A stretch of 64,000 bases of DNA, taken from contig NZ_NASZ01000008.1 in NCBI RefSeq assembly GCF_014596575.1, positions 1 to 64,000 of the forward strand. Reading direction: 5' to 3'. The position numbers and the translations under genes were made by a program. The notes beneath the pieces were generated by a model that worked only from the letters and a program-made list of their open reading frames with translations, ran no database searches and was not told where the DNA came from. Below are positions 17,464 to 56,451 of the stretch, piece by piece. Position 1 is the first letter of the stretch, and the number at the start of each line of letters is the position of its first letter. Origin of the DNA: Flavobacterium pokkalii (GTDB taxonomy: Bacteria > Bacteroidota > Bacteroidia > Flavobacteriales > Flavobacteriaceae).

Positions 17464-17548
17464 GGAGAAATGGCAGAGTGGTCGATTGCGGCAGTCTTGA
17501 AAACTGTTGACTGTAACAGGTCCGGGGGTTCGAATCCCTCTTTCTCCG
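17464..17548 (+). tRNA. tRNA-Ser(UGA)
   Basis: The 85-nt cloverleaf has acceptor stem GGAGAAA/TTTCTCC with discriminator G, and an anticodon stem GCAGT/ACTGT closing the loop CTTGAAA (anticodon TGA). A long variable arm marks class II tRNA-Ser. The T arm is GGGGG-TTCGAAT-CCCTC. CCA is not encoded. The last 21 bases plus one flanking base are repeated exactly at 56430-56451, so the 3′ end is the apparent insertion site of the island that follows. Confidence 0.95.
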
Positions 17549-17549
17549 C
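17528..17549 (+). repeat. Left attachment-like repeat (attL) in the tRNA-Ser 3′ end
   Basis: This 22-bp sequence beginning GTTCGAATCC and ending TTCTCCGC is identical to 56430-56451. Diverged similarity continues for about 145 bp on both sides' downstream flank, through the terminator. This arrangement is typical of integration into a tRNA 3′ end, where the incoming element restores the intact gene. Confidence 0.7.
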
Positions 17550-17605
17550 TGAAGGCCAAAAAGGAGACTTTTCAAAGATTTCAAAAAAGCCAAAAAAAAA
17601 GCGGT

Positions 17606-17640
17606 AAACCCTGAAAATCAAACGATTTGCAGGGTTTTTT
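17606..17640 (+). terminator. tRNA-Ser terminator
   Basis: Stem AAACCCTG/CAGGGTTT with an inner AAATC/GATTT stem and an AAAC loop is followed by a T run. A diverged copy at 56517-56550 keeps the same fold with a few substitutions. Confidence 0.8.
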
Positions 17641-17652
17641 ATTTTATCCTAC

Positions 17653-17701
17653 TTTTCAATATTTATAATATCACGCAAAATCTTCATGGCACATCCGTGG
17701 C
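17653..17701 (+). repeat. Second direct repeat near the left island end
   Basis: These 49 bp match 56326-56374 at equal length with about seven mismatches. The last 25 bp (AAAATCTTCATGG through CCGTGGC) are identical in both. The first part is the tail of the tRNA downstream region, which also occurs a third time near 56566-56595. Confidence 0.75.
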
Positions 17702-17845
17702 GCAGCGTGAGTGGACTTGATACTTTTTTTCACACAAAAAACTAAGGCGATTTTTTTTCTGAACCTTTAGAGAGGGGGGGTAAAAAAATACGTACATTAT
17801 TTTTTGCTGTCCTGTGGCAGGATAAAATCTCAAACATTTGAGAAA

Positions 17846-18854
<1,009 letters not shown>

Positions 18855-18948
18855 CCTGGAGTTATTAAACAGAAACAGACTTCGTAATTTAGCTTTTAAT
18901 AATACAAATTATTAAATTGGGACCTAACCTACCATTAATCACATATCG

Positions 18949-19146
18949 CAATTTGAAATATCCAACATTACAGAAGCAAAAAACAATCTCTACCCGCAAG
19001 ACATTGTAATTTTATTAAAAATAATTGCATTTGATAAAAAATTCTGGTTTTATTATAGTAACGTTAAGAAATTAGGAATTATTTTATTAGAACTAAGTCA
19101 GTCTTTAAATCGTTCCAAATATATAAGCTTAATTGATGATGTCTGA
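18949..19146 (+). pseudogene. Fragment of a small HTH regulator gene
   Basis: One open frame without a convincing start reads ...QFEISNITEAKNN..., LYPQDIVILLKIIAFDKKFW... and ends LSQSLNRSKYISLIDDV before TGA. It recalls the N-terminal part of a winged-helix regulator common in Bacteroidota, in which LSQSxxSxSLxRSKxAGL is the recognition helix. Here the linker before that helix is garbled and the C-terminal half is absent. It is best read as a remnant stranded between the IS3 debris and the PUL. Family recall is from memory and uncertain. Confidence 0.45.
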
Positions 19147-19267
19147 GAAAAGTAAACAGAATTTAAAATTCTCTTTTAATATAATAACTTTCAATTAAAA
19201 AAACTGACAATAATTAACATTAAAACGATTCAATCTCTTATCATTCATAATCTTATTTTAAAGTAAA

Positions 19268-19300
19268 AAAAAGCCGTCAATTTTTAAATGACGGCTTTTT
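19268..19300 (-). terminator. Terminator after the 1373-residue lyase gene
   Basis: Perfect stem AAAAGCCGTCA/TGACGGCTTTT with a short AT loop and T runs on either strand. It lies 18 bp past the stop codon of the lyase gene and marks the downstream end of the PUL. Between the pseudogene at 19146 and this hairpin nothing else was seen. Confidence 0.85.
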
Positions 19301-19318
19301 GAATCCAAATGAAAACAA

Positions 19319-22300
19319 TTAATTTTTAACAATATACTTCACAATTCTATCATTTCCGTTTAGAATATGCAGCAAATAATTCCCCGAAGACACCCCTTCC
19401 ATCGACATTGATTGTATTTTATCCTTTATCTCCTGAATACGTATTTTTGTACCTAAAACATTGTATAATTCCAAAGTTGCACCAGTGTGAACTTCATTTA
19501 AGTTCACGTAGACAACTGAACTCACTGGATTTGGATATACTGTAATATTTCCAGAAGTCTTATTAGTACTTATTAAAGTTTTATCACTAGCTTCTTTATT
19601 AGTAGTACTTACACATGTCCCCAATTTATCTCCATGATTCAAATGGGACTGAACAGCTGTCGAACTTACACAAATCTCCTGACCATTATGACAAACCATC
19701 ACTTTGTCACCACTATTACCACATTGCACGTTTATCATTTTGATTTCAATTGTAACGGTAGTTTGACATGATTTTGCGTCAATTATTAATACGCTATAAA
19801 TTCCTGCCTGAGCAACAGCTATGGTTTGAGATTTTTGCCCTGAATTCCAAACATAACTATAAGGAGCAGTACCACCTGAAGGTATAGCAGTAATATTTAA
19901 CGATGATGGTCCATAACCTACATAAATAGTATTTTTTGCATCTATTGCTGCGTTCATCGCATATACATCCGGTATTACAGCAGTCAATTGCATTGGGTTT
20001 GTATCGTCACAGTCTAAATTGTTTGCCACACCACAAGCTACCGGAGCACCTGCCCCTAATCCATCACCATCATTATCTGCATATAAAAACTGCGTATCAT
20101 CACAATCAAGATTGTTAGTAGCATAAGCTTCCGGTGCTTCATTAACAGCAAGTAAAGCTATTGTACCCGATCCAAAACCATCCTTGTCTGCATCTACATA
20201 AAATAACTTATTCACAGTTAGCGGTTGTGTAACAGAAGTCGCTGCATTATAGATTTCATCTCCAGACTGCGAAGCTGTGATAATGGTTGTTCCTGCGCCA
20301 ACAATGTGAACTTTACCATCAAGAATTGTAGCAACTTCCGGATTAGAACTTGTATAACTTATCGTCAATCCTGAACTCGCAATAGCTCCGGCTGTAAAAT
20401 CAGCATCCTCCATTGTTTTTTCAGATAGGTTATTGAATGTAATACTCTGATCATTTTTAACCACCACAAGATTTCGTGTAACCATATCAGCTGAATAATA
20501 ATTAGCATCACCTGTTTGAGAAGCAGTAATTTCCGTAGTTCCAGCACCAACAATATGAATTTTTCCATTCACAATTATTGCTACATTTACATTTGAACTG
20601 GAATAAGTCATTGGCAAACCAGAGCTCGCTGTAGCAGGATCAAAATCCACATCACCCATTTTCTTTGTGGCCATTACAGGAAATGAGATTGTTTGATAAG
20701 CTGGTGCAATCAATGCTTGTAATTCAGACACAGACTTAACTGTCTTTACCCAATCAACCTGATAGTTAGTTTCTCCCGATGTAATATCTGCAATTTTAAA
20801 TTGAAAAGTAGAAAGAGCCGTTGGAGAACTTAATACAGCAGTTGAACCAAAACCAGTTTTAGACAAATCAAAATAATAGATATCATTACCTACTTTTCCT
20901 GTCCATTTGTTACTTCCATTACCGAATGATCCTAAATTTGAATCTAAAGTTATATTTGCGACTAAAGGCTTTTTAAATTTAATAGCTACAATTGGATAAT
21001 TAGTTGGATATAAGGTTACACCCGCCGTTTTTTTGATATCCCCTCGATAGGATCCATTTGTTTGTTTTGAAAGATTTACTCTTAATTGTCCATTATCTGT
21101 AGCAGCAATTGCTCCACTGGTAGCTGCATTCCATCCCTCTGTAGTTGATGTAAAATTATCATTTATTAATCCTGTAGCAGGATCTAATGCAACCAAATCA
21201 GCAACTGATTTAACCGTTTTTACCCAATCAACAGTATAATTTGTTTCACCGGAGGCAATATCAGCTACTTTAAACTGAAAAGTTGACAATGTGGTGGCAT
21301 CGATAGAAGATAACAAAACAGCCGATGAACCAAAACCAGTTTTAGTTAAGTCGTAATAATAAATTTCTTCTCCCTCTTTTCCTGTCCATTTGTTACTTCC
21401 ATTTCCATAAGATCCTAAATTGGTATCTAAAATAAAATTACAGCTTACAGGTTTTTTCATTTTAACTGCCAATATTGGAAAATTACCCGGATGAACAGTT
21501 GTTCCGTTTTTTTGCATATCTCCCCTACTTTTCCCATTAGATTGAAGAATTGTTGTAATTTTTAATTCCCCATTTTCACTAGTGGCAACAGAACCTGAAG
21601 TAACAGCTTTCCAATTATCTGTAGTTGTTGTGAAATTATCATCAATTAAACCTTCATTTGGAAAAGGATGATTAGCTGTAGCATTCAAATAAAAAAGTAG
21701 TGAACCATAACCCGGATTATCAGCTCCAAAAGGCGCTCCTTCCGGCCCCATTTTACCTAATACAGCCATGGTTTGAGGCATCGCCAAACCTTTACGGTAT
21801 ACATAATGATTGTAAGCAATTTCAAATACAGCTCTTAACTCACCTCTTCCATTGGGAGAAATAGCAGTTGGAGTATAATCTTGATAATTTTTTTCGCAAA
21901 AATCATAACTGGTTTGATAAGGCACATCCTGTCCCAAATTATATTGAGATGTATATTCATAACCTCTCATAATAGCGTTATTATTAGCTGAGTACAAATC
22001 TATGCCTTGTTTCAAGGCCATTTCTGCCAATTCAGCTAGGGAACCTATCGCCAACATTACATGTGGTTGATCTCGGTTACTTTCCTGCAATTGACCTGCA
22101 TCAGTAAGTACATAATTTTTGATACTTCCATTGCCGTCTCCGTAATAATAGTAGTTTACAGTTTTGTTAAACATAGCGGTATCTTCAGTAAATATGGCAA
22201 TTCCCATCAATGCTTTCATACAAATAATGTCCCAATTTCCATGAGCACAAGGTCTAAAATTACCTATGATAGGATAAAAAACAGATTTTAACATATTCTG

Positions 22301-23440
22301 ACATGCTAAAACTTTAGTTGATGACCACGCAGGATAGGTTGCTCGCATAATTTCTGCTGCATTGACCAACATAAATCCATACAATCCATTTAACTCTTCG
22401 TCTGCACCAATGATTGATTTTGTGGTGGCTGAATAAGCATCGATAATTTGAACTGCTTTTAAAGCATGGGCTTCATTACCTGTAATTTTATACATTAAAG
22501 AATTATAGTATGCAGCTAAAAAATCACTTTCGACATTATTTTTGACTGTTCCACCTGCAATACCATCTACGGTAATTGATGGATCTCTTGTTAAAGCTGT
22601 AAAAGGACCTTTCATCGTATAAGTAGCGGATGCTTTACCGGAAGCGATTAATTGCTGATAGCTTTGATACGGACGACTTACTTGGCGACTTACTAAATCT
22701 TTAATTCTATCCAAATCAGCAGCACTATGTAATAGTCCCGGGTGCACAAAATTTCCGCTAAATTCAAATTGAGGATTTGTATTCCCGGAAGGATTTAAAT
22801 AAGAACGTAAGGCATCTACAGAAGCAAATGATTTTACCCAGGATACTTCATAAAAAGTCTTATTAGCATCAATCTCCTCCTGAGACAAAACAATATCTGC
22901 TATTTTAAACTGAAAAGAAGTTAAAGTTGTTGGCTGAGTTGTAGAAAGCGTTGTTGTTCCTAATTTTCCTGTGGATAAATCCCAGTAATATACATTACCT
23001 GTATCTGTAGCTATTTTAGTTGCATTATTATTCACGCTATTGTAGGAACCTAAATTAGTATCAAAAAAATAATTACAACGGGGTGGCTTTGTAATTTTAA
23101 TCGCGATAATAGGATAAGAACCCGCATGAAAAGTTACCCCTCCATTTTTTCGAAAATCGGCACGGTATTTCCCTCCTGAAACCGGAGCAAAATTTACAAG
23201 ATACTTTCCATTTTGGATTTGCCCAGTTGATCCTGAAGTTACAGGAATCCAATTAAAGGTATTTCCCGTTGAGAAATCATCATTAATCAATCCTGTTTGT
23301 GCTTCTATTTTTACAAAAGGTAAAAACAGTATCAACATACTAATGTAGCCCAAGTTAATAAATCGGCTTTGTTTTTTACTGTCAGTTTTAAAAAATACTG
23401 ACTTAAAAAGAGAAATCAATAAAGTAGTTTTTTGGTTCAT
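19319..23440 (-). CDS. Multidomain secreted lyase: alginate-lyase-like domain, repeated binding modules, type IX sorting signal
   Basis: The 1373-residue protein has a signal region ending near residue 48. Approximate order: a beta-rich module (50-225, GLINDDFSTG...); an alginate-lyase-like alpha/alpha-toroid domain (230-595, HPGLLHSAADLDRI, NAAEIMR, CAHGNWDIICMKALMGIAIF, NRDQPHVMLAIG, NGRGELR); two more copies of the first module (597-755 and 757-912); two Ig-like repeats (913-1075, TYSSSNVNVAII); an Asp-rich calcium-binding-like stretch (DADKDGFGSG); a SprB-like repeat; a Cys motif (VMVCHNGQEICV); and a type A type IX sorting domain (VYPNPVSSVVYVNL, 1293-1373). The catalytic part is similar to the 423-residue lyase at 43144-44415. 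Cleavage of a uronic-acid backbone outside the cell is inferred; PL38-like is a guess. Confidence 0.85.
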   Translation of the reverse strand: MNQKTTLLISLFKSVFFKTDSKKQSRFINLGYISMLILFLPFVKIEAQTGLINDDFSTGNTFNWIPVTSGSTGQIQNGKYLVNFAPVSGGKYRADFRKNGGVTFHAGSYPIIAIKITKPPRCNYFFDTNLGSYNSVNNNATKIATDTGNVYYWDLSTGKLGTTTLSTTQPTTLTSFQFKIADIVLSQEEIDANKTFYEVSWVKSFASVDALRSYLNPSGNTNPQFEFSGNFVHPGLLHSAADLDRIKDLVSRQVSRPYQSYQQLIASGKASATYTMKGPFTALTRDPSITVDGIAGGTVKNNVESDFLAAYYNSLMYKITGNEAHALKAVQIIDAYSATTKSIIGADEELNGLYGFMLVNAAEIMRATYPAWSSTKVLACQNMLKSVFYPIIGNFRPCAHGNWDIICMKALMGIAIFTEDTAMFNKTVNYYYYGDGNGSIKNYVLTDAGQLQESNRDQPHVMLAIGSLAELAEMALKQGIDLYSANNNAIMRGYEYTSQYNLGQDVPYQTSYDFCEKNYQDYTPTAISPNGRGELRAVFEIAYNHYVYRKGLAMPQTMAVLGKMGPEGAPFGADNPGYGSLLFYLNATANHPFPNEGLIDDNFTTTTDNWKAVTSGSVATSENGELKITTILQSNGKSRGDMQKNGTTVHPGNFPILAVKMKKPVSCNFILDTNLGSYGNGSNKWTGKEGEEIYYYDLTKTGFGSSAVLLSSIDATTLSTFQFKVADIASGETNYTVDWVKTVKSVADLVALDPATGLINDNFTSTTEGWNAATSGAIAATDNGQLRVNLSKQTNGSYRGDIKKTAGVTLYPTNYPIVAIKFKKPLVANITLDSNLGSFGNGSNKWTGKVGNDIYYFDLSKTGFGSTAVLSSPTALSTFQFKIADITSGETNYQVDWVKTVKSVSELQALIAPAYQTISFPVMATKKMGDVDFDPATASSGLPMTYSSSNVNVAIIVNGKIHIVGAGTTEITASQTGDANYYSADMVTRNLVVVKNDQSITFNNLSEKTMEDADFTAGAIASSGLTISYTSSNPEVATILDGKVHIVGAGTTIITASQSGDEIYNAATSVTQPLTVNKLFYVDADKDGFGSGTIALLAVNEAPEAYATNNLDCDDTQFLYADNDGDGLGAGAPVACGVANNLDCDDTNPMQLTAVIPDVYAMNAAIDAKNTIYVGYGPSSLNITAIPSGGTAPYSYVWNSGQKSQTIAVAQAGIYSVLIIDAKSCQTTVTIEIKMINVQCGNSGDKVMVCHNGQEICVSSTAVQSHLNHGDKLGTCVSTTNKEASDKTLISTNKTSGNITVYPNPVSSVVYVNLNEVHTGATLELYNVLGTKIRIQEIKDKIQSMSMEGVSSGNYLLHILNGNDRIVKYIVKN

Positions 23441-23759
23441 TTTTAGAGTGTTAAATTTTCTAATTCTTTTTTAGTGGTCGGTGTTGGTTTTAGATTTACA
23501 GATATCAAAACAGATTATGACATCTTACTTTTTTTCATTTTATCATAGGCTAACTATTTTAATTAAACGTTTATAACTGAACTATATATCACTCATTATC
23601 AACCGTTCTAAATTAGCTTAAAGGAATCACCATAACTATAAATCATCGTCCATAATGCATAAATTAGCATCCATTTTTAAAATAATTGAACTAAAAAAAC
23701 TAAGAAGTTAATGGTTCTCCTTTTCTACCAAAACTTCATTAATCCTGTTTAAAAAAAAT

Positions 23760-23794
23760 GCCCAAATCATATCCTGTTCAGATATAATTTGGGC
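23760..23794. terminator. Bidirectional terminator after the GH127-to-cupin operon
   Basis: A 14-bp stem (GCCCAAATTATATC against GATATGATTTGGGC, one G-U pair) carries T-rich flanks on both strands. It follows the cupin gene on the minus strand and isolates the 1373-residue lyase gene, whose promoter must lie in 23441-23759. No clear −7 box was found there. Confidence 0.8.
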
Positions 23795-23891
23795 AAAAAA
23801 TAAATTCTATAAAAAACTGCTAAAACAAATCCCAATTAAATTAATAACTTATTATTCAAAACAATAAGCTAAAAAATTTAGCATTGGCTAA

Positions 23892-24419
23892 CTACCTACC
23901 AAAATCGTCTTGTAAACGAACGATATCTTCCTCATCAGACGGATTTTCAGGATCGGTATGTTGCCATATTTCAGCAACGATACCCCAGGAATCCAAACCA
24001 ATTAAGCGGTGACGTTCTCCTTTATCCATTTGGATAAAATCACCCGGAACAAGACTTTGTACATCTCCTTCTTCATCCGTCAGACTGGTCTTTACTCCTA
24101 CAATTCCGGCTACTATTTTCCAAATTTCAGCTCTTCGAAAATGATATTGCCAAGACAATCTTTTATTTGGAGCCACCACTAAAATTTTTGGACTTAACTT
24201 ATTGGTAATTTTAATCGAATCCATCTCAAGATGTGGAAAATATTTAGCTGCAAAAACTGCTGCCTGACCTTCGTCAATTACGAAAAAACCTCCCCAAGGT
24301 CTAAAATTATCTTTCTTGACAACCGTAAAATTTTCTTTTTTTAATTCAGCTTCAATTTGATTAAAAACCAGCTCTTTAGTATTATTTTTATCTGTATTAA
24401 TATCCATTAATCTATTCAT
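23892..24419 (-). CDS. Cupin protein related to type II phosphomannose isomerases
   Basis: The 175-residue single-domain cupin has FRPWGGFFVID (about residue 40), WQYHFRRAEIWKIVAG (about 90-105, metal-ligand region) and FIQMDKGERHRLIGLD (about 130-145). The pattern resembles the C-terminal cupin of mannose-6-phosphate isomerase/GMP proteins, often labelled phosphoheptose isomerase in related genomes. Its place after a KduD-type dehydrogenase suggests a role in isomerising a uronate or sugar intermediate in the cytoplasm; no signal peptide is present. The ATG overlaps the SDR gene by 8 bp; an internal ATG at 24407 is possible. The substrate is not determinable. Confidence 0.7.
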   Translation of the reverse strand: MNRLMDINTDKNNTKELVFNQIEAELKKENFTVVKKDNFRPWGGFFVIDEGQAAVFAAKYFPHLEMDSIKITNKLSPKILVVAPNKRLSWQYHFRRAEIWKIVAGIVGVKTSLTDEEGDVQSLVPGDFIQMDKGERHRLIGLDSWGIVAEIWQHTDPENPSDEEDIVRLQDDFGR

Positions 24420-25197
24420 TTGAAGGTTTTCCGATGGTAGCTAAAATTCCACCATCCACATAAATCACCTGACCGTTCACAAAATTACTCGCATCAGAAG
24501 CCAGGAAAACTGCTGTTCCCGCTAAATCTTCCGGATCACCCCAACGACCTGCAGGTGTTCTTCCTATAATAAATTCATTGAAGGGATGACCATCTACACG
24601 AATTGGTGCTGTTTGCGAAGTCGCAAAATAACCCGGACCAATTGCATTTACCTGAATATTGTATTTTGCCCATTCGGTCGCAAGGTTTCTGGTTAACATT
24701 TTTAAACCTCCTTTAGCTGAAGCATAAGCACTGACATTGTCACGCCCTAACTCACTCATCATCGAACAGATATTAATAATCTTTCCAGACTGACGGGCAA
24801 TCATCCCTTTAGCCACTAATTTTGACATAATAAACGGACCTACTAAATCCACATCAATCACTTTTCTGAAATCAGAAACTGGCATATCAATAGCTAATAC
24901 GCGCATAATAATTCCTGCATTGTTCACTAAAATGTCAATTTTACCGTGATTAGCTTCAATCTCTGCCACTTTCTTTTCAGCATCAAGCTCATCAGTTACA
25001 TCAAACACATATCCAGTAGCTTTATAACCTGCATTTCTGTATTGTTCAATCGCCACATCTAAAGGTTCCTGCACATTATTAGTAATAATTAACTCTGCTC
25101 CTGCTTTGGCTAAACCTTCTGCCATTGCCATTCCTAATCCGTGTATTCCTCCGGTAACCATAGCTGTTTTACCTTCAAGACTAAATAAATTTGTCAT
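24412..25197 (-). CDS. SDR-family dehydrogenase, KduD / gluconate 5-dehydrogenase type
   Basis: This 261-residue classical short-chain dehydrogenase has the cofactor motif TGGIHGLG (about 15-22), NNAG (about 92), Ser in CSMMSE, and Y-x3-K in SAYASAK (Tyr about 154). A C-terminal YVDGG motif is typical of KduD and gluconate 5-dehydrogenases. In uronate breakdown such enzymes interconvert 5-keto-4-deoxyuronate products or reduce 4-deoxy-hexoseulose uronate, which fits the lyase and GH88 genes of this PUL. The reaction direction and cofactor cannot be read from sequence. It lies between the porter and the cupin. Confidence 0.85.
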   Translation of the reverse strand: MTNLFSLEGKTAMVTGGIHGLGMAMAEGLAKAGAELIITNNVQEPLDVAIEQYRNAGYKATGYVFDVTDELDAEKKVAEIEANHGKIDILVNNAGIIMRVLAIDMPVSDFRKVIDVDLVGPFIMSKLVAKGMIARQSGKIINICSMMSELGRDNVSAYASAKGGLKMLTRNLATEWAKYNIQVNAIGPGYFATSQTAPIRVDGHPFNEFIIGRTPAGRWGDPEDLAGTAVFLASDASNFVNGQVIYVDGGILATIGKPSNE

Positions 25198-25227
25198 TCT
25201 TTATTATATATTAGTTATTAGTTTCAC

Positions 25228-26553
25228 TTATTTTGTTGCCAGACTTTCTGACAATTCCTCTAAAGTTTTCCCTTTAGTTTCCGGCATTTTAAAGAATACC
25301 CAAAGCAATTGCCAAACCATCATTAGACAGAAAATACCAAACACTGTTGTAGAGCCAATTTCTTTAAACAAAAACGGAATGAATGAAGGGATTAAAGCTG
25401 CCAATACCCAATGAACTGAGGTTCCAAAAGAAGTACCGGCTGCTCTTAATTTATTTGGGAATAATTCAGATATAAAAACCCAAATTACAGACCCCTGGCC
25501 TACTGCATGAGAAGCGATAAATAAAAAGAAAAACACCGGGACAGCCATACCTTTCCACTCAAAATAAAAAGCCAGTGTTACTAATCCTAAAGACACTATA
25601 TAACCAACAGATCCCAAATACATCAACGTTTTACGTCCATACTTATCAATTAAAGAAATACCTATTAGTGTAAAAATCAAGTTAACAATTCCAATCCCAA
25701 TACTGCTAAAAAACGATGCTGATTTTTCCAAACCGGCCAATTCAAAAATACGTGGCGCATAATACAAGAAAGCATTAATCCCTGAAAACTGATTGAATAA
25801 TGCGATGAAAAAAGCCAGCATCAGTGGTTTGCGATATTTTTTCATAAAAATAGACTCATCAGCTATTTCTTGTCCTTTTTCATTTTCCATAGCTTTTATT
25901 TCCTCAGCTACTTCTTCCTCTGTATTCACCAAACGTAATATTTCAACCGCTTTCTCTTTGTCTTTTTTATATTCATAAATCCAACGCGGACTTTCGGGAA
26001 TTCCAAAAACTAATAAAGTATAAATTAAAGCCGGAGCAGATTGCACTCCCAACATCCAACGCCAGGAATTCTCTCCTATATCCTGCAACAAATAATTAGA
26101 CAAAAAAGCGATTAGAATACCAAACACAATATTAAATTGGTACAAGGCTACCAATTTCCCTCTGTCTTTAGCAGGAGCAATTTCCGAAACATAGGTTGGT
26201 GCTGCAATCGTGGAAGCTCCAATTCCTAATCCTCCTAAGAATCTAAAAATTGAAAAAATGATGGAGTCATTAGCCAGTGCGGTACCCACTGCGGAAAGAA
26301 AAAATAAAATTCCTATCAAAATTAAAGTTTTCTTTCTACCTAATGCATTTGTAGGTATAGCACCAAAAACAGCACCTATTACTGTTCCCCAAAGTGCTGA
26401 TGACATCACCACCAAACCATGATATAATTCAGATGAATTCCATAATTGCTGTAATTGTTTATCGGCTCCTGAAATTACTACGGTATCAAAACCAAATAGA
26501 AAACCGGCTAAGGCTACAACTATAGACCAGTATATTATTTTTTTATTGTTCAT
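25228..26553 (-). CDS. MFS sugar porter (inner membrane)
   Basis: The 441-residue protein of the major facilitator sugar porter family has twelve hydrophobic segments. Signatures include GRKKTLILIG after TM2-3, PESPRWIYEYKKDKEKA at the end of the first half, FNQFSGINAFLYYAPRIFE in TM7, DKYGRKTLMYLG and the C-terminal PETKGKTLEEL. It presumably imports a mono- or disaccharide, perhaps a unsaturated or free uronate, released in the periplasm by GH88, GH127 and others. It sits 30 bp upstream of the SDR gene in the same operon. Confidence 0.92.
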   Translation of the reverse strand: MNNKKIIYWSIVVALAGFLFGFDTVVISGADKQLQQLWNSSELYHGLVVMSSALWGTVIGAVFGAIPTNALGRKKTLILIGILFFLSAVGTALANDSIIFSIFRFLGGLGIGASTIAAPTYVSEIAPAKDRGKLVALYQFNIVFGILIAFLSNYLLQDIGENSWRWMLGVQSAPALIYTLLVFGIPESPRWIYEYKKDKEKAVEILRLVNTEEEVAEEIKAMENEKGQEIADESIFMKKYRKPLMLAFFIALFNQFSGINAFLYYAPRIFELAGLEKSASFFSSIGIGIVNLIFTLIGISLIDKYGRKTLMYLGSVGYIVSLGLVTLAFYFEWKGMAVPVFFFLFIASHAVGQGSVIWVFISELFPNKLRAAGTSFGTSVHWVLAALIPSFIPFLFKEIGSTTVFGIFCLMMVWQLLWVFFKMPETKGKTLEELSESLATK

Positions 26554-26595
26554 TTTTAATTTTTATTTTTTGGATTGGTTATAATTTATTTATTT

Positions 26596-36530: not shown

Positions 36531-36540
36531 ACTATTTATT

Positions 36541-46166: not shown

Positions 46167-46182
46167 GAATAAAAAAATATCT

Positions 46183-47961: not shown

Positions 47962-47976
47962 TTTTTCATTTAATTA

Positions 47977-50900
47977 TTAAAATCCAATATTTACACCAAA
48001 AGACCAGGTACGACCAAATGGATAACCTGCATTATCTCCATCAGTAGCATTTTGTTGAGCTTCCGGATCAAATCCATCTTTAATAGTTGAAGCTTCCCAT
48101 AAATCATTACCTGAGAAATAAAATCTAATTTTATCTAATTTTATCATTTTTGTAATTTTTTCAGGAATAGTATAACCCACCACTAAAGTCTTCAATCGGA
48201 TATAACGATTATTTTGTAACATAAAATCATTATTAGCATAATTCCATGCTGCACGTGTTGGATTGACAGTTAAACGAGGAAATTCGGCATTAGGATTTTC
48301 TTCGGTCCAGGTTTTCCCTAAAAAGGAAGGATTTTGGTTAGTATACAAGGCTCTAAATGGATAAGCCATATATCCTGTACGCATAATATTTTGTTTTAAA
48401 TGTCCTTGGAAAAAAGCATTCAAATCAAATCCTTTAAAATTACCACCTAGATTAATCCCAAACACATAATGAGATGCTGAATCACCAGCATATACCAATG
48501 AACTGTTCTTACTACCTGCGCCGGTAATTGTTCCTGTACCAGCTACATCTACTCTCTTTGTATCACCTGGTCGTAAAGCTACATTTGGACTAGTTTGTTG
48601 CAATGCGGCTAAATCCCCTTTGCCGCCATAAGCCTGGTAGTAAGCATCAACTTCTGCCTGATCTTTAAAATAACCATCTGTCTTATAAACAAAAAACGGT
48701 TTAAATCCATATCCATTAACAACACCGTTTTGTCCTGCTACATAATTATCTCCATTTAATATACCAGATACTTTACTTTTTGAATCACCAATATTAAAAG
48801 ATACATTATAGCCAAAATCTTTTTTTCTATCTTTCCAGCCTACAACAAACTCCCAACCTTTAGAATCAAAATTTCCATTATTTGTTTTCGGTGCTGTTGC
48901 TCCTAAAACAGATGGATATACAATATCTATCAACATTCCATTATTTTTCTTTTCATAAAGATCAAAAGAAGTAGTCAAACGATTATTTAAAAATCCAAGA
49001 TCTATACCGATATTCTTTTGAATCACTTTTTCCCAAGTACGGTTAGGGCTGTATATCCCATTATTAGCCAATGAGGATACTGTTTGTAGTGATGCAGGTT
49101 GCCCCATTACCCCACTTCCAATATTAACAAGAGAAAGATATTCAAAATCAGCTAATCCTTTAGCTTCATTACCTGTGCTACCAATTGTAGCTCTTAATTT
49201 ACCAAAATCCACAATGCCATTAAGAGAATTAAAGAATTTTTCTTTTGTAAAAACCCATGCTAATTGAGCCGAACCGAAGTTTTTAAATTTATTACCTTGA
49301 GCAAAACGCGAATTTCCATCCCTTCTTCCAATAAATTCCGCAATGTACTTTTCATCATAATTATAATTCACTCTGGAAATATAAGAATAACGACCATTTT
49401 GACCTTTATATCCGCCATTTGTTTGTCCTTCAGTAGGAGCCAAGCTAATATCATAAACACCTGAATCAACAAACCCCAGACGTGATCCAAACAAGCCTTG
49501 TGAAGTGAATTTTTCACCATTTACCCCCGCCATAACGGAAACATTATGAACATTGTTAAAAGTTTTATTATAACGTGCTAACGCCTGATAATAATAATAA
49601 TATTTAGATTCAGCACCTGTTGAATAACCATTATTGATTCCATCTGTTTGATATGCATTAGCTGTAGGATTTCCATACCAATCATAGAGTTGCACTGGTA
49701 CAACATATGATTCAGTATTATATCGTTCATTTTGAATAGAAGCCAAGCCTTCTAATGAAAAGCCACTTCCAATATCATAAGTTGCCTTCAAATCTATACG
49801 ACCTGTTAATCTTTTCTTGTTAATTCGACCAGCATCTGAAGTTGATGCAGCAGCATTCCTGTTAGCTCCTGCATCCACCCCATTAAAAGGTGCCAACCAT
49901 TGACCATAAGGATTTTTTGCAGGATAGAAAGGCATATCAAAAGAATAAAGAATATTACCAAATCCTCTTGAAGGTTGACTAGTATTAGTATTAACAACGC
50001 TAACACCAGTTTCTAATTTTAATTTATCAGATAATTGATAATCATAATTAAAACGAATATTCATCTGTTTTTCTCCATCATAGGCGGTCAACAAATTAGC
50101 CTGATTATCAGCATAACCTGCTGACAATCTGTAACTAGATTTATCACCCCCTCCAGAAATAGCTAAATTATGTTGAAATGAAAAACGCGGACCAAATAAT
50201 TCATTAATTCTATTAGCATTGAAGATAAAGAAATCCCTACCTGGCCATGTATTAAAATGATAGGCCCCCTCAACACCCTGTTGTAAATTTTTCAAATTCT
50301 GTTCACTATCCCAGATCCACCAATTAGGTAAAGACTCTTCTTTATTAGCCTCAATCCACATGGTAGCATATTGTTTAATATTAGGTGAAAAGTTTGTTAA
50401 GCCATTAGTAACATAACGAAAATTAGAGTTGAAAGTAACTTTAACTTCACCTTTGCCCTTTTTAGTAGTTACCAAAATAACTCCATTAGCAGCACGGGAA
50501 CCATAAATAGCGGCCGAACCATCTTTTAAAACTGAAACACTCGCAATATCATCTGGATTCAAATTTTGAAAAGCTTGAGCATTTATTGCCGGAACTCCAT
50601 CTATAATAATTAGCGGATCAGAACCATTTATTGACGAAAAACCACGTATTTGAAAATTCAGTCCCTCACTTCCAGGTCTTGAAGACGAACGAGTCACTAC
50701 TAAACCTGGTGTTTGACCTTGTAATGCCAATCCAACATTGGTTACTGCCCGATCTTCAAACACTTTAGAACTTACCACTTCAACCGCACCAGTTAATGTT
50801 GCTTTTTTCTGAGTACCATAACCTACTACTACCACTTCATTTAATGAAGCTACATCAGCACTCATGGTTACATTTAATACTTTTTGCGTTCCAACTTTAA

Positions 50901-51240
50901 TTTCCTGAGTTTTCATACCTACGGCACTGAAAACCAAAATTGCATTTGAAGAAGAAACATTGATACTGTAATTACCATCAATATCAGTACTTATTCCGCC
51001 TTTCTCTCCTTTTATATTTACATTTACTCCAGGGATTCCCATGTTATCCTCAGCAGCAACTACCTTTCCTTTTATTGTAATTTGCTGTTGAGCTACATTT
51101 AAAGCATATTTTTCAACCAGATTTAATTTCCCATTAGTTTCAGCAAACGACTGGGAAGAAATACAAACCAGAAAAGACAAAACCAAGGATGGTTTAATCC
51201 TGTTCCATAATTCGGTTTTATTCAACGCATTTATTCTCAT
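47977..51240 (-). CDS. SusC/RagA family TonB-dependent outer-membrane transporter
   Basis: The 1087-residue protein has an N-terminal signal (VLSFLVCISSQSFAET), a carboxypeptidase-D-like regulatory domain (ITIKGKVVAAEDNMGIPGVNVN, about 53-125), a plug domain beginning with the SusC signature LNEVVVVGYGTQKKATLTGAV (about 135-155) and a long beta-barrel ending FGRTWSFGVNIGF. It imports oligosaccharides released at the surface, driven by TonB-ExbBD, with SusD as lid. It is the first gene of the unit 51240→43144. The 380 bp upstream hold no gene; no exact −7 box was found. Confidence 0.97.
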   Translation of the reverse strand: MRINALNKTELWNRIKPSLVLSFLVCISSQSFAETNGKLNLVEKYALNVAQQQITIKGKVVAAEDNMGIPGVNVNIKGEKGGISTDIDGNYSINVSSSNAILVFSAVGMKTQEIKVGTQKVLNVTMSADVASLNEVVVVGYGTQKKATLTGAVEVVSSKVFEDRAVTNVGLALQGQTPGLVVTRSSSRPGSEGLNFQIRGFSSINGSDPLIIIDGVPAINAQAFQNLNPDDIASVSVLKDGSAAIYGSRAANGVILVTTKKGKGEVKVTFNSNFRYVTNGLTNFSPNIKQYATMWIEANKEESLPNWWIWDSEQNLKNLQQGVEGAYHFNTWPGRDFFIFNANRINELFGPRFSFQHNLAISGGGDKSSYRLSAGYADNQANLLTAYDGEKQMNIRFNYDYQLSDKLKLETGVSVVNTNTSQPSRGFGNILYSFDMPFYPAKNPYGQWLAPFNGVDAGANRNAAASTSDAGRINKKRLTGRIDLKATYDIGSGFSLEGLASIQNERYNTESYVVPVQLYDWYGNPTANAYQTDGINNGYSTGAESKYYYYYQALARYNKTFNNVHNVSVMAGVNGEKFTSQGLFGSRLGFVDSGVYDISLAPTEGQTNGGYKGQNGRYSYISRVNYNYDEKYIAEFIGRRDGNSRFAQGNKFKNFGSAQLAWVFTKEKFFNSLNGIVDFGKLRATIGSTGNEAKGLADFEYLSLVNIGSGVMGQPASLQTVSSLANNGIYSPNRTWEKVIQKNIGIDLGFLNNRLTTSFDLYEKKNNGMLIDIVYPSVLGATAPKTNNGNFDSKGWEFVVGWKDRKKDFGYNVSFNIGDSKSKVSGILNGDNYVAGQNGVVNGYGFKPFFVYKTDGYFKDQAEVDAYYQAYGGKGDLAALQQTSPNVALRPGDTKRVDVAGTGTITGAGSKNSSLVYAGDSASHYVFGINLGGNFKGFDLNAFFQGHLKQNIMRTGYMAYPFRALYTNQNPSFLGKTWTEENPNAEFPRLTVNPTRAAWNYANNDFMLQNNRYIRLKTLVVGYTIPEKITKMIKLDKIRFYFSGNDLWEASTIKDGFDPEAQQNATDGDNAGYPFGRTWSFGVNIGF

Positions 51241-51622
51241 AATGAATTGTTTTTTCGTTATTAATTGATTTAGTTATTAGTTTTTTATTAATTTCTCTAA
51301 TTACATTTAGAGAATTCAAATTTGGTAATGAAATTTAGTTCTTTTTACATTTAATTATTTTTTGAAGGTTGATAATTTTAATACTCATAATTTTTAATCA
51401 TAAATTTTATCATAATGATGATAATAGCATTACAATATTATTGATTAAAAAAAAAGCAGTCTATAACCTATGATTCAATCAGTATAACTTATCGACCATT
51501 TTTTAATTTCCCCATATTTTGCAAGGATTTAAAGCAACTTTGAAACCTAAAAAAAATCTAAACTGTTTTTAAAAAAATTGAAAAATTAAAAGATACTTCC
51601 TCTAATTCTCCCAAAGAACCAT
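51241..51622. other. Intergenic region upstream of susC
   Basis: No gene was seen in this AT-rich stretch between susC and the HTCS terminator. It must hold the minus-strand promoter of the susC unit and the likely binding site of the HTCS regulator; no repeat or palindrome stood out. Confidence 0.5.
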
Positions 51623-51663
51623 AAAAAAAGGCTCCGTTTCAACTTAAAAACGGAGCCTTTTTT
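51623..51663. terminator. Bidirectional terminator after the HTCS gene
   Basis: Perfect 10-bp stem GGCTCCGTTT/AAACGGAGCC with an 8-nt loop; seven A before and six T after give T runs on either strand. It follows the HTCS stop codon by 24 bp on the minus strand. Confidence 0.9.
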
Positions 51664-51686
51664 AGCAAAATATTATATTAAAAAAT

Positions 51687-54600
51687 CTATTCTTCAGTAG
51701 TTTCTTCCAGGTCTTTTTGATCCTGAATATACTGTGTAGGAGTTACTTTAAAAACTTCTTTAAAGGTTTTTGTAAAATAAGCTGTCGAGTTAAATCCGCA
51801 ATTCAATGCCACTTCTTTTATCGAATATTGATTGGTCAACAACATTTCGGATGCATATTTTAATCGGATGGTACGGATAAAATTACTAGGGTTTTGTCCG
51901 GTTAGGGAATTGATTTTTCTGTAAAACTGTGAACGTCCCATTCCCAAATTCCCTAATAAATCATCCAATGTAAAATCGATATTACTTACATTATCCACTA
52001 CTACTTTGGTAGCTTTATCCAGAAAGTGTTCATCTAATGAGTTAATCGTAATTTCAGAAGCAGCTACAATTCCTCCAATAGCAGCAAAGCGCTCTCTGGA
52101 TCTTTTTCGGGATTCCAACAAATTATCAATTCGGGTTTTCAGTACCGCCATATTAAACGGTTTTGACAGGTAAGCATCTGCCCCTGTTTGATAACCTCTA
52201 ATCATATCTTCATCCAGATTTCTGGCGGTTAATAACAAAATAGGTATATGACTGATTTCAAAATCATTTTTAAGCTGTTGACAGAGCTCAAAACCATCCA
52301 TCTTTGGCATCATCACATCACTAATTACCATATTTGGCTGGTACTTTCTGATTTTTTCCAAACCTTCTGCCCCATTTGTAGCCTCTTTTACCTGATAATA
52401 CTCTTTCAATTCACTTTTTAAGTGATTGCGAAGCACCTTATTATCTTCTACTATAAGAATCAGTGGTTTATTTTCACTTTCAGAAGCCAGTGAATCCGGT
52501 TTCATTTTTTCGTCAGAAATAGCAATTTCATATTCTGCCGATTGGATAGCATTCATTTCCTTACCTTGTGTACTCCAGTTATCCGACTGCTTTTGTTTTA
52601 CTACCGCTTTTAAATCAGCAGGAAGTGTTATGGAAAAAGTAGTTCCTTTTTTATACTGACTTTCTACAGTAATATGTCCTTTGTGCAATTCGACTAAACT
52701 CTTAGTATAATTTAATCCAATTCCGGTTCCTGTTTTGGAAGCATCGGCGTGAAAAAACCGCTGAAACACTTCTTTCAATTGTTTTTTCTTGAAACCAATA
52801 CCAGTATCACTTATCTGAATTTGAATCCCTTTTACCTGAGTTGTCGGACTAAAGAACAACTTTTTATATTTCTTTTCTGAAATCATCACTTCGGATAAGG
52901 AAAGCGTAATTATTCCACCATTATCGGTAAACTTAATCGCATTGGACAACAAATTAGCCAACATTTTCTCTATTTTATCGGGATCGAATTGTCCGTAAAA
53001 TTCTTTTGATGTAGATTTAAATACAAAACGAATATCTTTCTTCTTTGCCAAATCTTCAAAAAGAGAAAAAGTATCTCTGGCAAAAGCGACAATATCCATA
53101 TTGGAAAGTTCCAAACGGGACTTACCCATATCCATCTTTCTTAAATCCAAAAGCTGATCCACCAAATAAAGCAATCGCTTACTACTCTTTTGAATAATCA
53201 GAGCTGATTTTTTGACTTCTTCGGTATCATTAAAATGGGATAAAATCTTTTCTACAGGATTTAAAATTAATGTAAGTGGTGTTCTGAATTCGTGAGAAAC
53301 ATTGATAAAGAAACGCAATTTCATTTGATCTAATTCATGTTCTTTTTCTTCATTGATCTTATTGGTATAATATTCCAATCCGAACCACAACAATGCTACA
53401 AAAAGCGCAAAATATAAAAGGTAAGCCCACCAGGTTTTCCAAAATGGCGGAAGTACTCTGATTAAGATACTTGTTTTTCCGGCATTTTTCCATTGCCCGT
53501 CAATGGATGCCATAACTTCAAAAGTATAAAGCCCCGGAGCCAAATTAGCATAATTAGCTACCCGATTGTTATCTACATTCACATATTCATCATCCAGACC
53601 GCTCATTTTATAAGCATACTTTACCCTCTCCGGATTTTGATAATTTAAGGCTACAAACCCAAATGAGATATACCCCTCGTTGTACTTTAGTTCAATTTTT
53701 TTAACATCTGACAAAGCTTTATCGAACAATACTCTTCCGTTAACAGCATCACCGGCATTTACCCGTTTATTGAATATTCTGATATCGGTTAAAATGGGCT
53801 GTACTTTGTGTGTATTTAAAGCAATATCATTAGGATAAAAAATATTAAACCCATTGAGTCCTCCAACAATAATTCTTCCATCAAAAGTTTTGGCAATCGA
53901 TTTACTTTGGAACTCTAATCCCTGCAAACCGTCATGAGCATTGAAACTTTTAATATTCTTAGTTCTAGGATTTAATATGGACAAACCACTTTTAGTACTC
54001 ACCCAGATATTCTTATTATTATCTTCCTGAATTCCAACCACCAAATTATTTGGAAGTCCGTTTTTAGAAGAATACGCCTGTTTTAATTTTAAATCAGTTC
54101 CTAGCTGGTACAACCCCATATCGGTTCCAACCCAAATATTACCTTTATAATCTTCGGTAACCTGATTGACACGATTACCCTGTATGTTTTTTATCTTTAT
54201 TTCTTCAAAGTTGATATTTTTAGGAATTCTGCTTCTCAAATGATTCAGTTTTACATAGCACAAACCTAAAGAAGTACCTACCCAAAGACGCTGTTTAGAA
54301 TCTACAAATAAGGAAAAAACAAAATTGCTTATTAAACTTTTAGAATTGTTAAGTTGATTTTTATACTGGTAAAACTTATCCGTTTGGGTATCCAACAAAT
54401 TTAAACCAGCTGTAGATGTACCTACCCATAATCTTTGCTGATTATCTTTAACCGCACACCAAACCGTATTTTGTCCTATAGAAAAAGGATTTTTAGTATT
54501 GTTCTCGTATCGTTTTACAGTTCCGGTTTCTGTATTAAATTTATTCAGCCCTCCATCCCAGGTGCATACCCATAAATCGCTATTTTCTCCCCTCGCGAGA

Positions 54601-55871
54601 TACAAAATTTTATTAGAACTTAATGTATTTACTGAACTTGGAATTGATTTAAAGTGTTTAAACGTTTCTGTTTTACTATCAAACAAATCAAGCCCTCCTC
54701 CATCAGTACCAATCCAAATACGTTGTTTTCCATCTTCTATAACCGACTGCGCAATTTTGGTACTCAAACCTTTATTACCACTATTGGGCTTATAAAAATA
54801 GTGTCCGAAAGAGGATTTAAACAAAGCCAGTTTATTAATTCCTTTATTATAACTGGCAATCCAATAGATACCATCTTTATCTTCCAGCACATTTGAAGGC
54901 TGGTTATTAGGCAAGGAAAAGGGATCATCCTGATTTTGTAACAGATGCTGTAATACGCCTTTATTTCTGTCCAACAAATACAAACCACTTCCGTCAGTTG
55001 CAGCCCAGATGGTTCCTTTCTTGTCCTGATACAAATGAAAAACGGGTGTGCTTTGTCCAACTGGTGCAATTTTCTTAGCGGCTTTAGCAATAGGATTATA
55101 TAAATAAAGATGTGATAAATCGTTTCCTATCCAAAAATAACCTTCTCTATCCAGAAGAATTTGTTTGGGCAAATGATCTAAATATTGATGGGTTTCAAAA
55201 ACTATATTAATTCTGTCGAATGTATTTGTCTTAAAATTATAACGATGTAAATTATTCCCTTCGGTTCCTATCCAAATATCTCCTTTTTTATCCTGAATAA
55301 CATTAGTAACGTTATTATTATCAATTGACTTTTTATCGCTAATCTTATTGGTATAACGGTCAAAATGAAAATTTTTAAATGAAGGATAGTCCGCAGAATT
55401 TAAAATGATTTTCACTAAACCATTTTTAGTTCCCACCCATAGCAATCTGTTTTTTTTATCAAACAACAAACTATTTATCTCTTCCCTTACATTGACATCT
55501 TTATTTTTATAAAGATTGATTCGGTAAAATTTTTGTGATTTTTTATCAAAAACATTCAATCCATTGCTCGTACCTACCCATAAATAACCTTTATCATCCT
55601 GAGTGATGGCATTAATCCTGTTATTACTTATAGAATGAATATCATTTATAATTGGTCGGTAAATTTCAAATTCATATCCATTGTATTTATTTAAACCATC
55701 AATAGTACCAAACCACAAAAAACCATCACTATCCTGAAAAATTTCTACACTGGTACTACTGGAAAGTCCTTTATTAGTGTCAAAATTTTCAAATTTAAGA
55801 TTGGAATATTGCGAATAACTCAAATGGCTGACTAATAACAACACCATCCAAATGATGATTGATTTTTTCAT
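51687..55871 (-). CDS. Hybrid two-component system regulator (HTCS) of the PUL
   Basis: The protein has about 1394 residues from the ATG at 55871, which gives a standard signal peptide (MKKSIIIWMVLLLVSHLSYSQ); an ATG at 55910 adds 13 residues but leaves almost no leader after the −7 box at 55919-55926. Domain order: fourteen or so propeller repeats (DGFLWFGTIDGLNKYNG, KGYLWVGTSNGLNVFD) forming the periplasmic sensor; a Y_Y_Y domain near 730-800; a membrane helix near 810-835; HisKA (INVSHEFRTPLTLIL); HATPase (NLLSNAIKFTDNGG, DTGIGF, GTGIGL); a receiver (VEDNKVL, ISDVMMPKMDG, LSKPF); and a C-terminal AraC HTH. It likely senses an oligosaccharide and activates the PUL. Confidence 0.96.
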   Translation of the reverse strand: MKKSIIIWMVLLLVSHLSYSQYSNLKFENFDTNKGLSSSTSVEIFQDSDGFLWFGTIDGLNKYNGYEFEIYRPIINDIHSISNNRINAITQDDKGYLWVGTSNGLNVFDKKSQKFYRINLYKNKDVNVREEINSLLFDKKNRLLWVGTKNGLVKIILNSADYPSFKNFHFDRYTNKISDKKSIDNNNVTNVIQDKKGDIWIGTEGNNLHRYNFKTNTFDRINIVFETHQYLDHLPKQILLDREGYFWIGNDLSHLYLYNPIAKAAKKIAPVGQSTPVFHLYQDKKGTIWAATDGSGLYLLDRNKGVLQHLLQNQDDPFSLPNNQPSNVLEDKDGIYWIASYNKGINKLALFKSSFGHYFYKPNSGNKGLSTKIAQSVIEDGKQRIWIGTDGGGLDLFDSKTETFKHFKSIPSSVNTLSSNKILYLARGENSDLWVCTWDGGLNKFNTETGTVKRYENNTKNPFSIGQNTVWCAVKDNQQRLWVGTSTAGLNLLDTQTDKFYQYKNQLNNSKSLISNFVFSLFVDSKQRLWVGTSLGLCYVKLNHLRSRIPKNINFEEIKIKNIQGNRVNQVTEDYKGNIWVGTDMGLYQLGTDLKLKQAYSSKNGLPNNLVVGIQEDNNKNIWVSTKSGLSILNPRTKNIKSFNAHDGLQGLEFQSKSIAKTFDGRIIVGGLNGFNIFYPNDIALNTHKVQPILTDIRIFNKRVNAGDAVNGRVLFDKALSDVKKIELKYNEGYISFGFVALNYQNPERVKYAYKMSGLDDEYVNVDNNRVANYANLAPGLYTFEVMASIDGQWKNAGKTSILIRVLPPFWKTWWAYLLYFALFVALLWFGLEYYTNKINEEKEHELDQMKLRFFINVSHEFRTPLTLILNPVEKILSHFNDTEEVKKSALIIQKSSKRLLYLVDQLLDLRKMDMGKSRLELSNMDIVAFARDTFSLFEDLAKKKDIRFVFKSTSKEFYGQFDPDKIEKMLANLLSNAIKFTDNGGIITLSLSEVMISEKKYKKLFFSPTTQVKGIQIQISDTGIGFKKKQLKEVFQRFFHADASKTGTGIGLNYTKSLVELHKGHITVESQYKKGTTFSITLPADLKAVVKQKQSDNWSTQGKEMNAIQSAEYEIAISDEKMKPDSLASESENKPLILIVEDNKVLRNHLKSELKEYYQVKEATNGAEGLEKIRKYQPNMVISDVMMPKMDGFELCQQLKNDFEISHIPILLLTARNLDEDMIRGYQTGADAYLSKPFNMAVLKTRIDNLLESRKRSRERFAAIGGIVAASEITINSLDEHFLDKATKVVVDNVSNIDFTLDDLLGNLGMGRSQFYRKINSLTGQNPSNFIRTIRLKYASEMLLTNQYSIKEVALNCGFNSTAYFTKTFKEVFKVTPTQYIQDQKDLEETTEE

Positions 55872-56325
55872 TAATCCAGAATATTTAGATTGATTTAGAA
55901 AGTAATTCATGAAGGCTTCAAATTTATAAATTAAAATTTAAAAGCTATTATTTTTCTACTATAGAATTAAATTTTCTTAATATTTTAAAATATTTGTAAT
56001 TCAATAAATTTTATAATATGATAGTTATCCTTTAGTAATTAATAAATAATTATCTACTTCTATAATAATTTGCTATCTATCGTAATTAATCTCTCCAAAT
56101 CATATATAAATATCAAAAACTATAAATAAGTTATTCGATTGTAATAGCGGCGACTAAACTTTAAAAAAACCGTAATCAAATAAAAATTATAAATTCCTTA
56201 ATCCAATTATCAAAATCTGTTTTCAAATTTTTTTGTCCTAGTTTGTCATGAAAAAAGCATAGCTTTGTCTTTGAATCGATTAAGATTTATAACTTAAAAT
56301 TAAACGGATTTAAACCAATCTAGAA
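55872..56325. other. AT-rich intergenic region upstream of the HTCS gene
   Basis: No gene was seen. The only clear element is the −7 box at 55919-55926. It forms the inner side of the right island boundary. Confidence 0.5.
55919..55926 (-). promoter_or_regulatory. −7 box of the HTCS promoter
   Basis: On the minus strand it reads TAAATTTG, an exact TAnnTTTG match. Its position 48 bp upstream of the ATG at 55871 but only 8 bp upstream of the ATG at 55910 favours the shorter HTCS start. Confidence 0.5.
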
Positions 56326-56374
56326 TTTTCAATATTTATAAAAATGGTGAAAATCTTCATGGCACATCCGTGGC
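56326..56374 (+). repeat. Second direct repeat near the right island end
   Basis: It matches 17653-17701 without gaps; the last 25 bp are identical. It lies 55 bp before the tRNA-Ser 3′ fragment. Confidence 0.75.
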
Positions 56375-56429
56375 ACAACATTTAAAAAAATATTAGAAAT
56401 GCAGTATAATAGCGGGATGTGACGTTTTT

Positions 56430-56451
56430 GTTCGAATCCCTCTTTCTCCGC
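56430..56451 (+). repeat. Right attachment-like repeat (attR), tRNA-Ser 3′ fragment
   Basis: This is an exact copy of 17528-17549, the T-loop and acceptor end of tRNA-Ser(UGA). The sequence before it does not form a tRNA, so it is a fragment. The following 145 bp match the true tRNA's downstream region with scattered changes. Confidence 0.75.

Follow-up and report, generated by a model that had tools for sequence, protein, structure and literature searches.

How did a complete polysaccharide utilization locus (PUL) come to lie between two copies of the end of a tRNA gene in Flavobacterium pokkalii? The question is raised by a 64-kb window, the first part of contig C66 (140 kb) of the 3.89-Mb draft genome, in which a 38.9-kb segment (17528–56451; hereafter the island) begins at the end of a tRNA-Ser(UGA) gene. 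An initial annotation of the window had proposed that an element integrated at the 3′ end of this tRNA gene, restored the tRNA and either lost its integrase or is mobilized by outside enzymes. Our comparisons support integration with loss of the integrase, and suggest that the island is quite likely what remains of an integrated IntB-type integrative and conjugative element (ICE) that no longer has an integrase and carries the PUL as cargo at a tRNA-Ser hotspot. This reading is supported by exact breaks of homology, by a paired motif and by the ends of a 129-kb ICE in F. daejeonense DSM 17708 (G060), which was the nearest named relative found (TolC 99% identical). F. undicola (G061) and F. flevense (G062) were also used for comparison.

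Island ends and the related 129-kb ICE

The core repeat GTTCGAATCCCTCTTTCTCCGC is present at both ends of the island with 0 mismatches, and no third copy was found in the window at ≤3 mismatches. Two matches to this 22-bp core occurred in 0 of 100 shuffles of the window, which rules out a chance origin. A direct repeat of a tRNA 3′ end bounding a segment is the arrangement expected of a tRNA-targeting integrative element. The similarity extends downstream of the cores and includes the terminator hairpin (17570–17684 versus 56481–56595, 84% over 115 bp; approximately 80% over 148 aligned columns counted from the tRNA end), and the tRNA body upstream is not included. The exact 22-base repeat and the diverged downstream duplication of about 145 bp described in the initial annotation were thus both confirmed. 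The sequence downstream of the left core is referred to here as D and the related sequence downstream of the right core as D′.

The left edge of the island was defined by comparison with F. daejeonense. Positions 6558–17549 match contig C9 of that species at 96%, and the match ends exactly at the tRNA end. At the same tRNA, F. daejeonense carries a different ICE, with an integrase about 260 bp past the tRNA and, further in, CTnDOT-type conjugation genes (TraG, TraJ, TraM and a type IV coupling protein [T4CP]) plus a topoisomerase gene. Another tRNA-end copy lies 79.7 kb on (C9:2231–2243) and is followed by a second integrase that is 91% identical to IntA, an integrase encoded on contig C10 of F. 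pokkalii. Because the sister species carries a different element there, the tRNA-Ser(UGA) gene after TolC can be regarded as an integration site. The empty site joining 17549 to 56452 that the initial annotation expected in relatives was not found, the F. daejeonense site being occupied by this other ICE. The pairing of TolC with tRNA-Ser was seen at one of 80 TolC loci from named genomes, that of F. daejeonense, as judged within the stretch fetched for each locus (13 of the 80 stretches were shorter than 21 kb).

The right end (RE) has homologs in three other species, each located upstream of a tRNA-end copy: 56221–56451 in contig C6 of F. daejeonense (84%), 56263–56451 in contig C12 of F. 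undicola (88%) and 56134–56451 in contig C23 of F. flevense (88%). A four-way alignment demonstrated that the likeness ceases at the tRNA end and that the sequences beyond are dissimilar. In the window RE is followed by D′; in F. daejeonense it is followed by an IntA-type left end, about 100 bp of which is common to F. flevense; and in F. undicola the start of the following sequence resembles that of the C9 ICE of F. daejeonense (by eye). Therefore, RE behaves as the end of an element with varying neighbors. A break of homology exactly at the attachment (att) core, as expected for a tRNA-targeting element, was observed at the left outer and right inner edges of the island.

Both ends of the island recur in a 129-kb ICE of F. 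daejeonense (C6:20822–150151; closing att core at 150139). The order of this ICE is RibBA, tRNA-Ser, D, an intact IntB, a SusC/SusD pair, TraM/TraJ/TraG, relaxase, T4CP, RteC, other cargo and the right end. D of the window is approximately 90% identical to the sequence at C6:20823, which the intact IntB follows, and 94% identical to F. pokkalii sequence that lies downstream of the att copy at C10:80512 and upstream of a split IntB. The C6 integrase has SAM-like and catalytic domains, and its arm-binding domain scored 22.4 bits, just under the Pfam cut-off of 22.6. The same ICE also holds a 2760-aa open reading frame (ORF).

D and RE share a 52-bp stretch (85%), overlooked in the initial annotation, that contains TGGCACATCCGTGGCRCA. 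This motif was scanned for at ≤4 mismatches in 26 stretches (1.27 Mb), mostly chosen for their tRNA-Ser, att or PUL matches. Its spacing was kept in 10 of 11 matches, at +148 to +150 in six left ends and −78 to −79 in four right ends; the odd match (C10:40445, 4 mismatches) lies away from any att. IntB lies downstream of the motif-bearing left ends of F. daejeonense C6, F. undicola C28 and F. pokkalii C10, and is intact in F. daejeonense (437 aa) and F. undicola and split by a frameshift in F. pokkalii. Another repeat, CGGTTACCC, was found near the ends of the IntA elements (F. pokkalii C10 and F. daejeonense C9) and of the C9 ICE. Seven of its nine matches in 1.03 Mb were near an att and two were not, and it was not seen exactly at the other IntA-type left ends scanned. 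The CTnDOT integrase is described as binding arm sites (PMC8138268), and by analogy TGGCACATCCGTGGCRCA and CGGTTACCC may be candidate arm sites.

The absence of an integrase stated in the initial annotation agreed with our searches. tblastn with IntA gave no match (E up to 1) in 104 kb of contig C66, tblastn with IntB (in two pieces and whole) and two other integrases gave nothing below E 0.08 in 17500–19400 and 55900–64000, and no integrase fossil was found between 17712 and 19319. Elsewhere in the F. pokkalii genome, the only IntB found is the frameshifted one (C10:80792–82088); the other matches (C10:33894, C6:64320 and C35:121155) are of other types with 37–41% identity. Because the only IntB found in the draft genome is frameshifted, the island is probably stuck at present, and from their sequence its ends would still be suited to an IntB supplied from outside.

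By the mechanism proposed here, IntB, an IntCTnDOT-like tyrosine integrase targeting the 3′ end of tRNA-Ser(UGA), would have recombined that end with the copy on the element, after which the tRNA would have been completed, and provided with its terminator, by the first bases of the element. The interior would later have been reduced to, or replaced by, the PUL. The integrase gene, expected about 240–280 bp past the tRNA, would have been lost, with insertion sequence (IS) debris now in its place. Our preferred reading places the island in the family of the F. daejeonense C6 ICE, as a member that has no IntB and was reduced or exchanged its cargo.

Gene content of the island

As described in the initial annotation, a single PUL and IS and gene debris lie between the two cores (Table 1). 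The PUL is on the minus strand, and an IS transposase ORF and debris are located just after D. The Pfam scan covered 18 PUL ORFs and the IS ORF, and five more overlapping ORFs (102–121 aa) were outside it. Adjacent SusC and SusD, carbohydrate-active enzymes and a regulator identify the locus as a PUL. The lyases, GH28, GH88, cupin and short-chain dehydrogenase proteins together suggest a uronate-containing plant polysaccharide as its substrate. The IS ORF is positioned approximately where IntB begins in other D-type left ends, and no further copy of this IS was found in the F. pokkalii genome.

Table 1. Features of the window in order of position (GH, glycoside hydrolase family; HTCS, hybrid two-component system).
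Feature	Position	Strand	Basis or remark
TolC-like gene (OEP-type efflux), left flank	15912–17264	+	Named by eye; 450 aa, 99% identical in F. daejeonense DSM 17708
tRNA-Ser(UGA), intact; 3′ end is the left attachment core (attL)	17464–17549	+	ARAGORN; F. daejeonense synteny (96%) stops at 17549
22-bp core repeat, left copy	17528–17549	+	Exact-repeat search
Left end D, terminator hairpin at 17606–17637	17550–17712	+	Alignments to F. pokkalii C10 and F. daejeonense C6
Candidate arm motif, left	17687–17704	+	+150 from att core start 17537
IS transposase ORF (HTH_Tnp_1/HTH_28/HTH_21), then more IS-like debris	17804–18436	+	Pfam
Alginate-lyase-family/DUF4979 protein, Por sorting tail	19319–23440	-	Pfam
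MannoseP_isomer-family (cupin-type) protein	23892–24419	-	Pfam
Short-chain dehydrogenase (SDR)	24412–25197	-	Pfam
Sugar transporter (Sugar_tr/MFS)	25228–26553	-	Pfam
GH88-family hydrolase	26596–27840	-	Pfam
GH127 beta-L-arabinofuranosidase family	27863–29779	-	Pfam
532-aa protein	30074–31672	-	No Pfam match; conserved in F. daejeonense PUL (88%) and G144 (51%)
GH97	31683–33632	-	Pfam
GH43	33644–35314	-	Pfam
DUF4861 protein	35328–36638	-	Pfam
GH28	36541–37989	-	Pfam
Beta-lactamase-fold plus alpha/beta hydrolase (esterase-like)	37997–39934	-	Pfam
Heparinase II/III-like protein	39931–42720	-	Pfam, weak match (25.2 bits)
Alginate-lyase-family protein	43144–44415	-	Pfam
TIG/DUF4979 protein	44500–46068	-	Pfam
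SusD	46183–47961	-	Pfam
SusC TonB-dependent transporter	47977–51240	-	Pfam
Hybrid two-component regulator (HTCS)	51687–55910	-	Pfam; 97% aa identity in F. daejeonense PUL
Right end (RE)	56134–56451	+	Homologs in three species (F. daejeonense, F. undicola, F. flevense); match stops exactly at 56451
Candidate arm motif, right	56360–56377	+	−79 from att core start 56439
22-bp core repeat, right copy (attR)	56430–56451	+	Exact-repeat search
D′, outer right flank, mosaic: D-like as far as hairpin	56452–56597	+	
GH31-family gene, right flank	56677–59214	-	Pfam

The PUL in a sister species and the tRNA-Ser(UGA) hotspot

F. daejeonense carries the same PUL on contig C4 (SusC 84% and HTCS 97% identical), collinear with that of the window at 84–88% DNA identity over about 26 kb. 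Neither a tRNA-Ser att core nor the arm motif was found in the 91 kb read around it. When contig C4 was compared with contig C24 of F. pokkalii, the flanks matched up to C4:198680 and the match resumed at C4:239532, a position 7 bp short of the 3′ end of a tRNA-Leu(GAG) gene. The intervening 41 kb (C4:198681–239531) is replaced in F. pokkalii (C24:29187–29269) by 81 bp that include another terminator-like hairpin, and within the PUL stretch read the tRNA-Leu end was not found repeated. In the DNA read, the PUL therefore lies at tRNA-Ser in F. pokkalii and beside tRNA-Leu in F. daejeonense, and each species is without it at the locus of the other. The initial annotation had regarded a constant presence of the PUL between the window flanks as evidence against integration, and in F. 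daejeonense it is absent there; the tie of the PUL to the tRNA-Ser-end layout did not hold, as the F. daejeonense copy is elsewhere without such ends. Identity was 84–88% in the best-conserved parts of the PUL versus 91–97% for most flank matches (one flank piece, 83%). Being more diverged than most of the flanks and at a different locus in F. daejeonense, the PUL was not simply inherited in place, and its greater divergence suggests that it may have been acquired separately in the two species rather than moved recently. A SusC with at least 60% identity was found in four other genomes, one of them F. daejeonense, among 398 searched (F. pokkalii included).

A second tRNA-Ser(UGA) gene of F. 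pokkalii (C10:33522–33609) lies behind RibBA (named by eye) and is followed by a 47-kb island (C10:33609–80512; closing tRNA-end copy at C10:80492). According to Pfam, this island has an intact integrase, IntA, a PUL (GH43, GDSL esterase, GH42, SusC and FecR), RteC and other genes. Its exact empty site is present in F. daejeonense, where C10:22875–33607 plus C10:80492–82075 match C6:10001–20822 plus C6:20803–22384. With IntA, a PUL and a known empty site, the C10 island shows that a PUL is carried by an integrase-bearing element at tRNA-Ser in F. pokkalii.

Thirty Flavobacterium genomes had ≥600 bp of sequence after a tRNA-Ser(UGA) gene, and in 16 of them integrase homology of this group was located ≤600 bp from such a gene; at the loci measured the integrase match began 237–280 bp from the tRNA. 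Some of these 16 integrases are broken or cut (G008 and L018). The tally was made by hand from tRNA loci among the best matches of a search with a 361-bp query and from chosen relatives, and it does not comprise every tRNA-Ser gene per genome; L020, L027, L028 and L042 were dropped because they had no downstream sequence, and the pairs G005/G062 and G017/G066, whose members agree in coordinates or sequence, were counted once each, whereas G352, which equals G060, is outside the tally. In two genomes (G015 C9:1095788–1136888 and G008 C1:1557682–1602362), two to three tRNA-Ser(UGA) genes plus tRNA-end copies lie at intervals of 7–34 kb and the first tRNA is followed by integrase homology, an arrangement that resembles tandem accretion.

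Alternative readings and known systems

Several observations weigh against an integrated ICE remnant. No integrase of its own, relaxase or type IV secretion gene, by which a CTnDOT-like ICE is recognized, was found inside the island (Pfam on the scanned ORFs; tblastn), and no empty site was found for 17528–56451. The GC content of the island differs only slightly from that of the flanks (34.7% versus 36.1% and 35.0%). The subterminal arm-type sites are putative, consisting of a paired motif at fixed spacing for which IntB is a candidate binding protein. The tie of the motif to IntB is weakened by the left ends of G015 and G064, which have the motif and no IntB nearby. D likewise occurs without IntB nearby in G006, G008, G015 and G064, and may in part be an old native tRNA tail. 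Furthermore, this element is not required for placement of the PUL, which has no tRNA-Ser ends in F. daejeonense.

The dispersal of D also bears on this point. The initial annotation had named a widely dispersed repeat as a counter-indication, and this did not come true: the F. pokkalii genome yielded three copies of the hairpin repeat, each adjoining a tRNA-Ser end, so that a dispersed repeat family is not supported, within the limits that a related hairpin without att is present at one F. daejeonense locus and that partial matches exist at other loci in relatives. When the 361-bp query was searched against 60 genomes (F. pokkalii included), the D part was also matched without a tRNA (e.g., G007 C27, G017 C31 and G008 C4). 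One such match, G015 C1, directly follows a tRNA-Tyr gene, and part of D may therefore be a generic tRNA terminator.

The outer right flank is a further point against this reading, as its homology breaks at the hairpin (~56516) and not at the att (56452), where the initial annotation had placed the right breakpoint. From 56516 on, the window is 94% identical to F. daejeonense C14:107712, where there is no att, so the right flank is on another contig of that species. Beyond the hairpin, C14 continues into an AraC/SDR/UxuA/GH2 region (named by eye), whose genes have in F. pokkalii a 1.2-kb UxuA match on contig C12 (86%) and otherwise partial matches of 65–81%. Because the flank matches C14, with its AraC/SDR/UxuA/GH2 side and no att, the outer right junction must have been rearranged, perhaps by recombination at the shared hairpin. 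On C14 itself, a D-type hairpin and the bases following it lie between GH31 and an AraC-like gene, with no att core.

In one alternative, the island would be a living satellite: a PUL cassette that lacks an integrase yet has matching att cores and arm motifs, and that an IntB-type ICE, when present, moves in trans and possibly by tandem accretion next to itself. The retention of the core and the motif at both island ends is consistent with this, as are the IntB ICE with the same ends in F. daejeonense and the intact IntB of F. undicola. Nevertheless, we consider it unlikely, given that the only IntB found in F. pokkalii is frameshifted, that the left end contains IS debris, and that, in the stretches read, no tRNA-Ser att core was found near the PUL in any of the four further genomes whose SusC is ≥60% identical. 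That the flavobacterial tRNA-Ser(UGA) hotspot as a whole would stack such PUL cassettes in tandem as ICE satellites mobilized by IntB-type ICEs is equally doubtful; if true, it would mean that the exchange of sugar-digestion loci is modular and tied to no one conjugative element.

A slightly less probable alternative is that the left arms of the two tRNA-Ser loci of F. pokkalii were swapped, in nature or in the draft assembly, so that the island would belong to the RibBA–tRNA-Ser locus as a direct deletion derivative of the 129-kb ICE. The loci on C66 and C10 share 98 identical bases at the tRNA, which makes such a swap possible in a short-read draft, and at the RibBA locus of F. daejeonense it is D that forms the left end of the IntB ICE. 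However, both contigs are continuous through the tRNA, and the C10 element fits the F. daejeonense empty site with att, D and IntB beyond. A swap is compatible with the integrated remnant and alters only the place of the island.

Finally, recombination between tRNA-Ser copies or terminator-like D repeats could have set a chromosomal PUL between tRNA tails, as the mosaic right junction at the hairpin common to C14, the F. daejeonense PUL at another chromosomal place without tRNA-Ser ends and the 98-bp identical run might suggest, but this is improbable, as it leaves unaccounted for both the paired motifs and an RE conserved in four species that ends exactly at the att.

As an integrase-less remnant, the island resembles several known systems. 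Cis-mobilizable elements (CIMEs) related to streptococcal ICEs have ICE-like att ends without integrase or transfer genes. The island likewise has ends as in an ICE, and no integrase or transfer genes were found in it, but CIMEs were defined in streptococci, in another phylum, and mobilization of the island by a related ICE is putative. CTnDOT-type ICEs are resembled through the C6 relative of F. daejeonense, with its TraG/TraJ/TraM, RteC, T4CP, relaxase and integrase, whereas the window island was not found to have any of them; its target is the 3′ end of tRNA-Ser(UGA).

NBU1-type mobilizable elements have their own integrase and target the 3′ end of tRNA-Leu, according to the title of a reference cited in PMC8138268. 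On that description, what NBU1 and the island would share is an IntCTnDOT-subgroup integrase acting at the 3′ end of a tRNA gene, and they would differ in that no integrase was found in the island and that another tRNA is targeted. In gut Bacteroidetes, 47 SusC/SusD PULs are reported on mobile genetic elements (PMC6907783), and PULs on mobile elements of these bacteria also appear in PMC13188876. As far as these reports describe them, the likeness lies in a PUL as cargo of an integrated element; the island differs in being from Flavobacterium, at a tRNA-Ser hotspot and with the PUL as nearly its sole cargo. No publication on PUL islands at tRNA-Ser in Flavobacterium was found in a literature search that covered few subscription journals.

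Here a whole PUL is connected, outside the gut, with the ends of one defined ICE family. One genome contains two PUL islands, one at each tRNA-Ser(UGA) gene found, and two sister species have the same PUL at differing loci. With the end motif, it could become possible to assign integrase-less islands to a lost integrase from their sequence by itself, and the mobility of PULs in environmental Bacteroidota can thereby be tested.

Repeats were also observed at contig ends of the draft genome. The first ~100 bases of the window (5–107) are 98% like the first bases of contig C10, and tandem repeats spaced about 264 bp apart are present at the end of C10 (C10:87018–88729).

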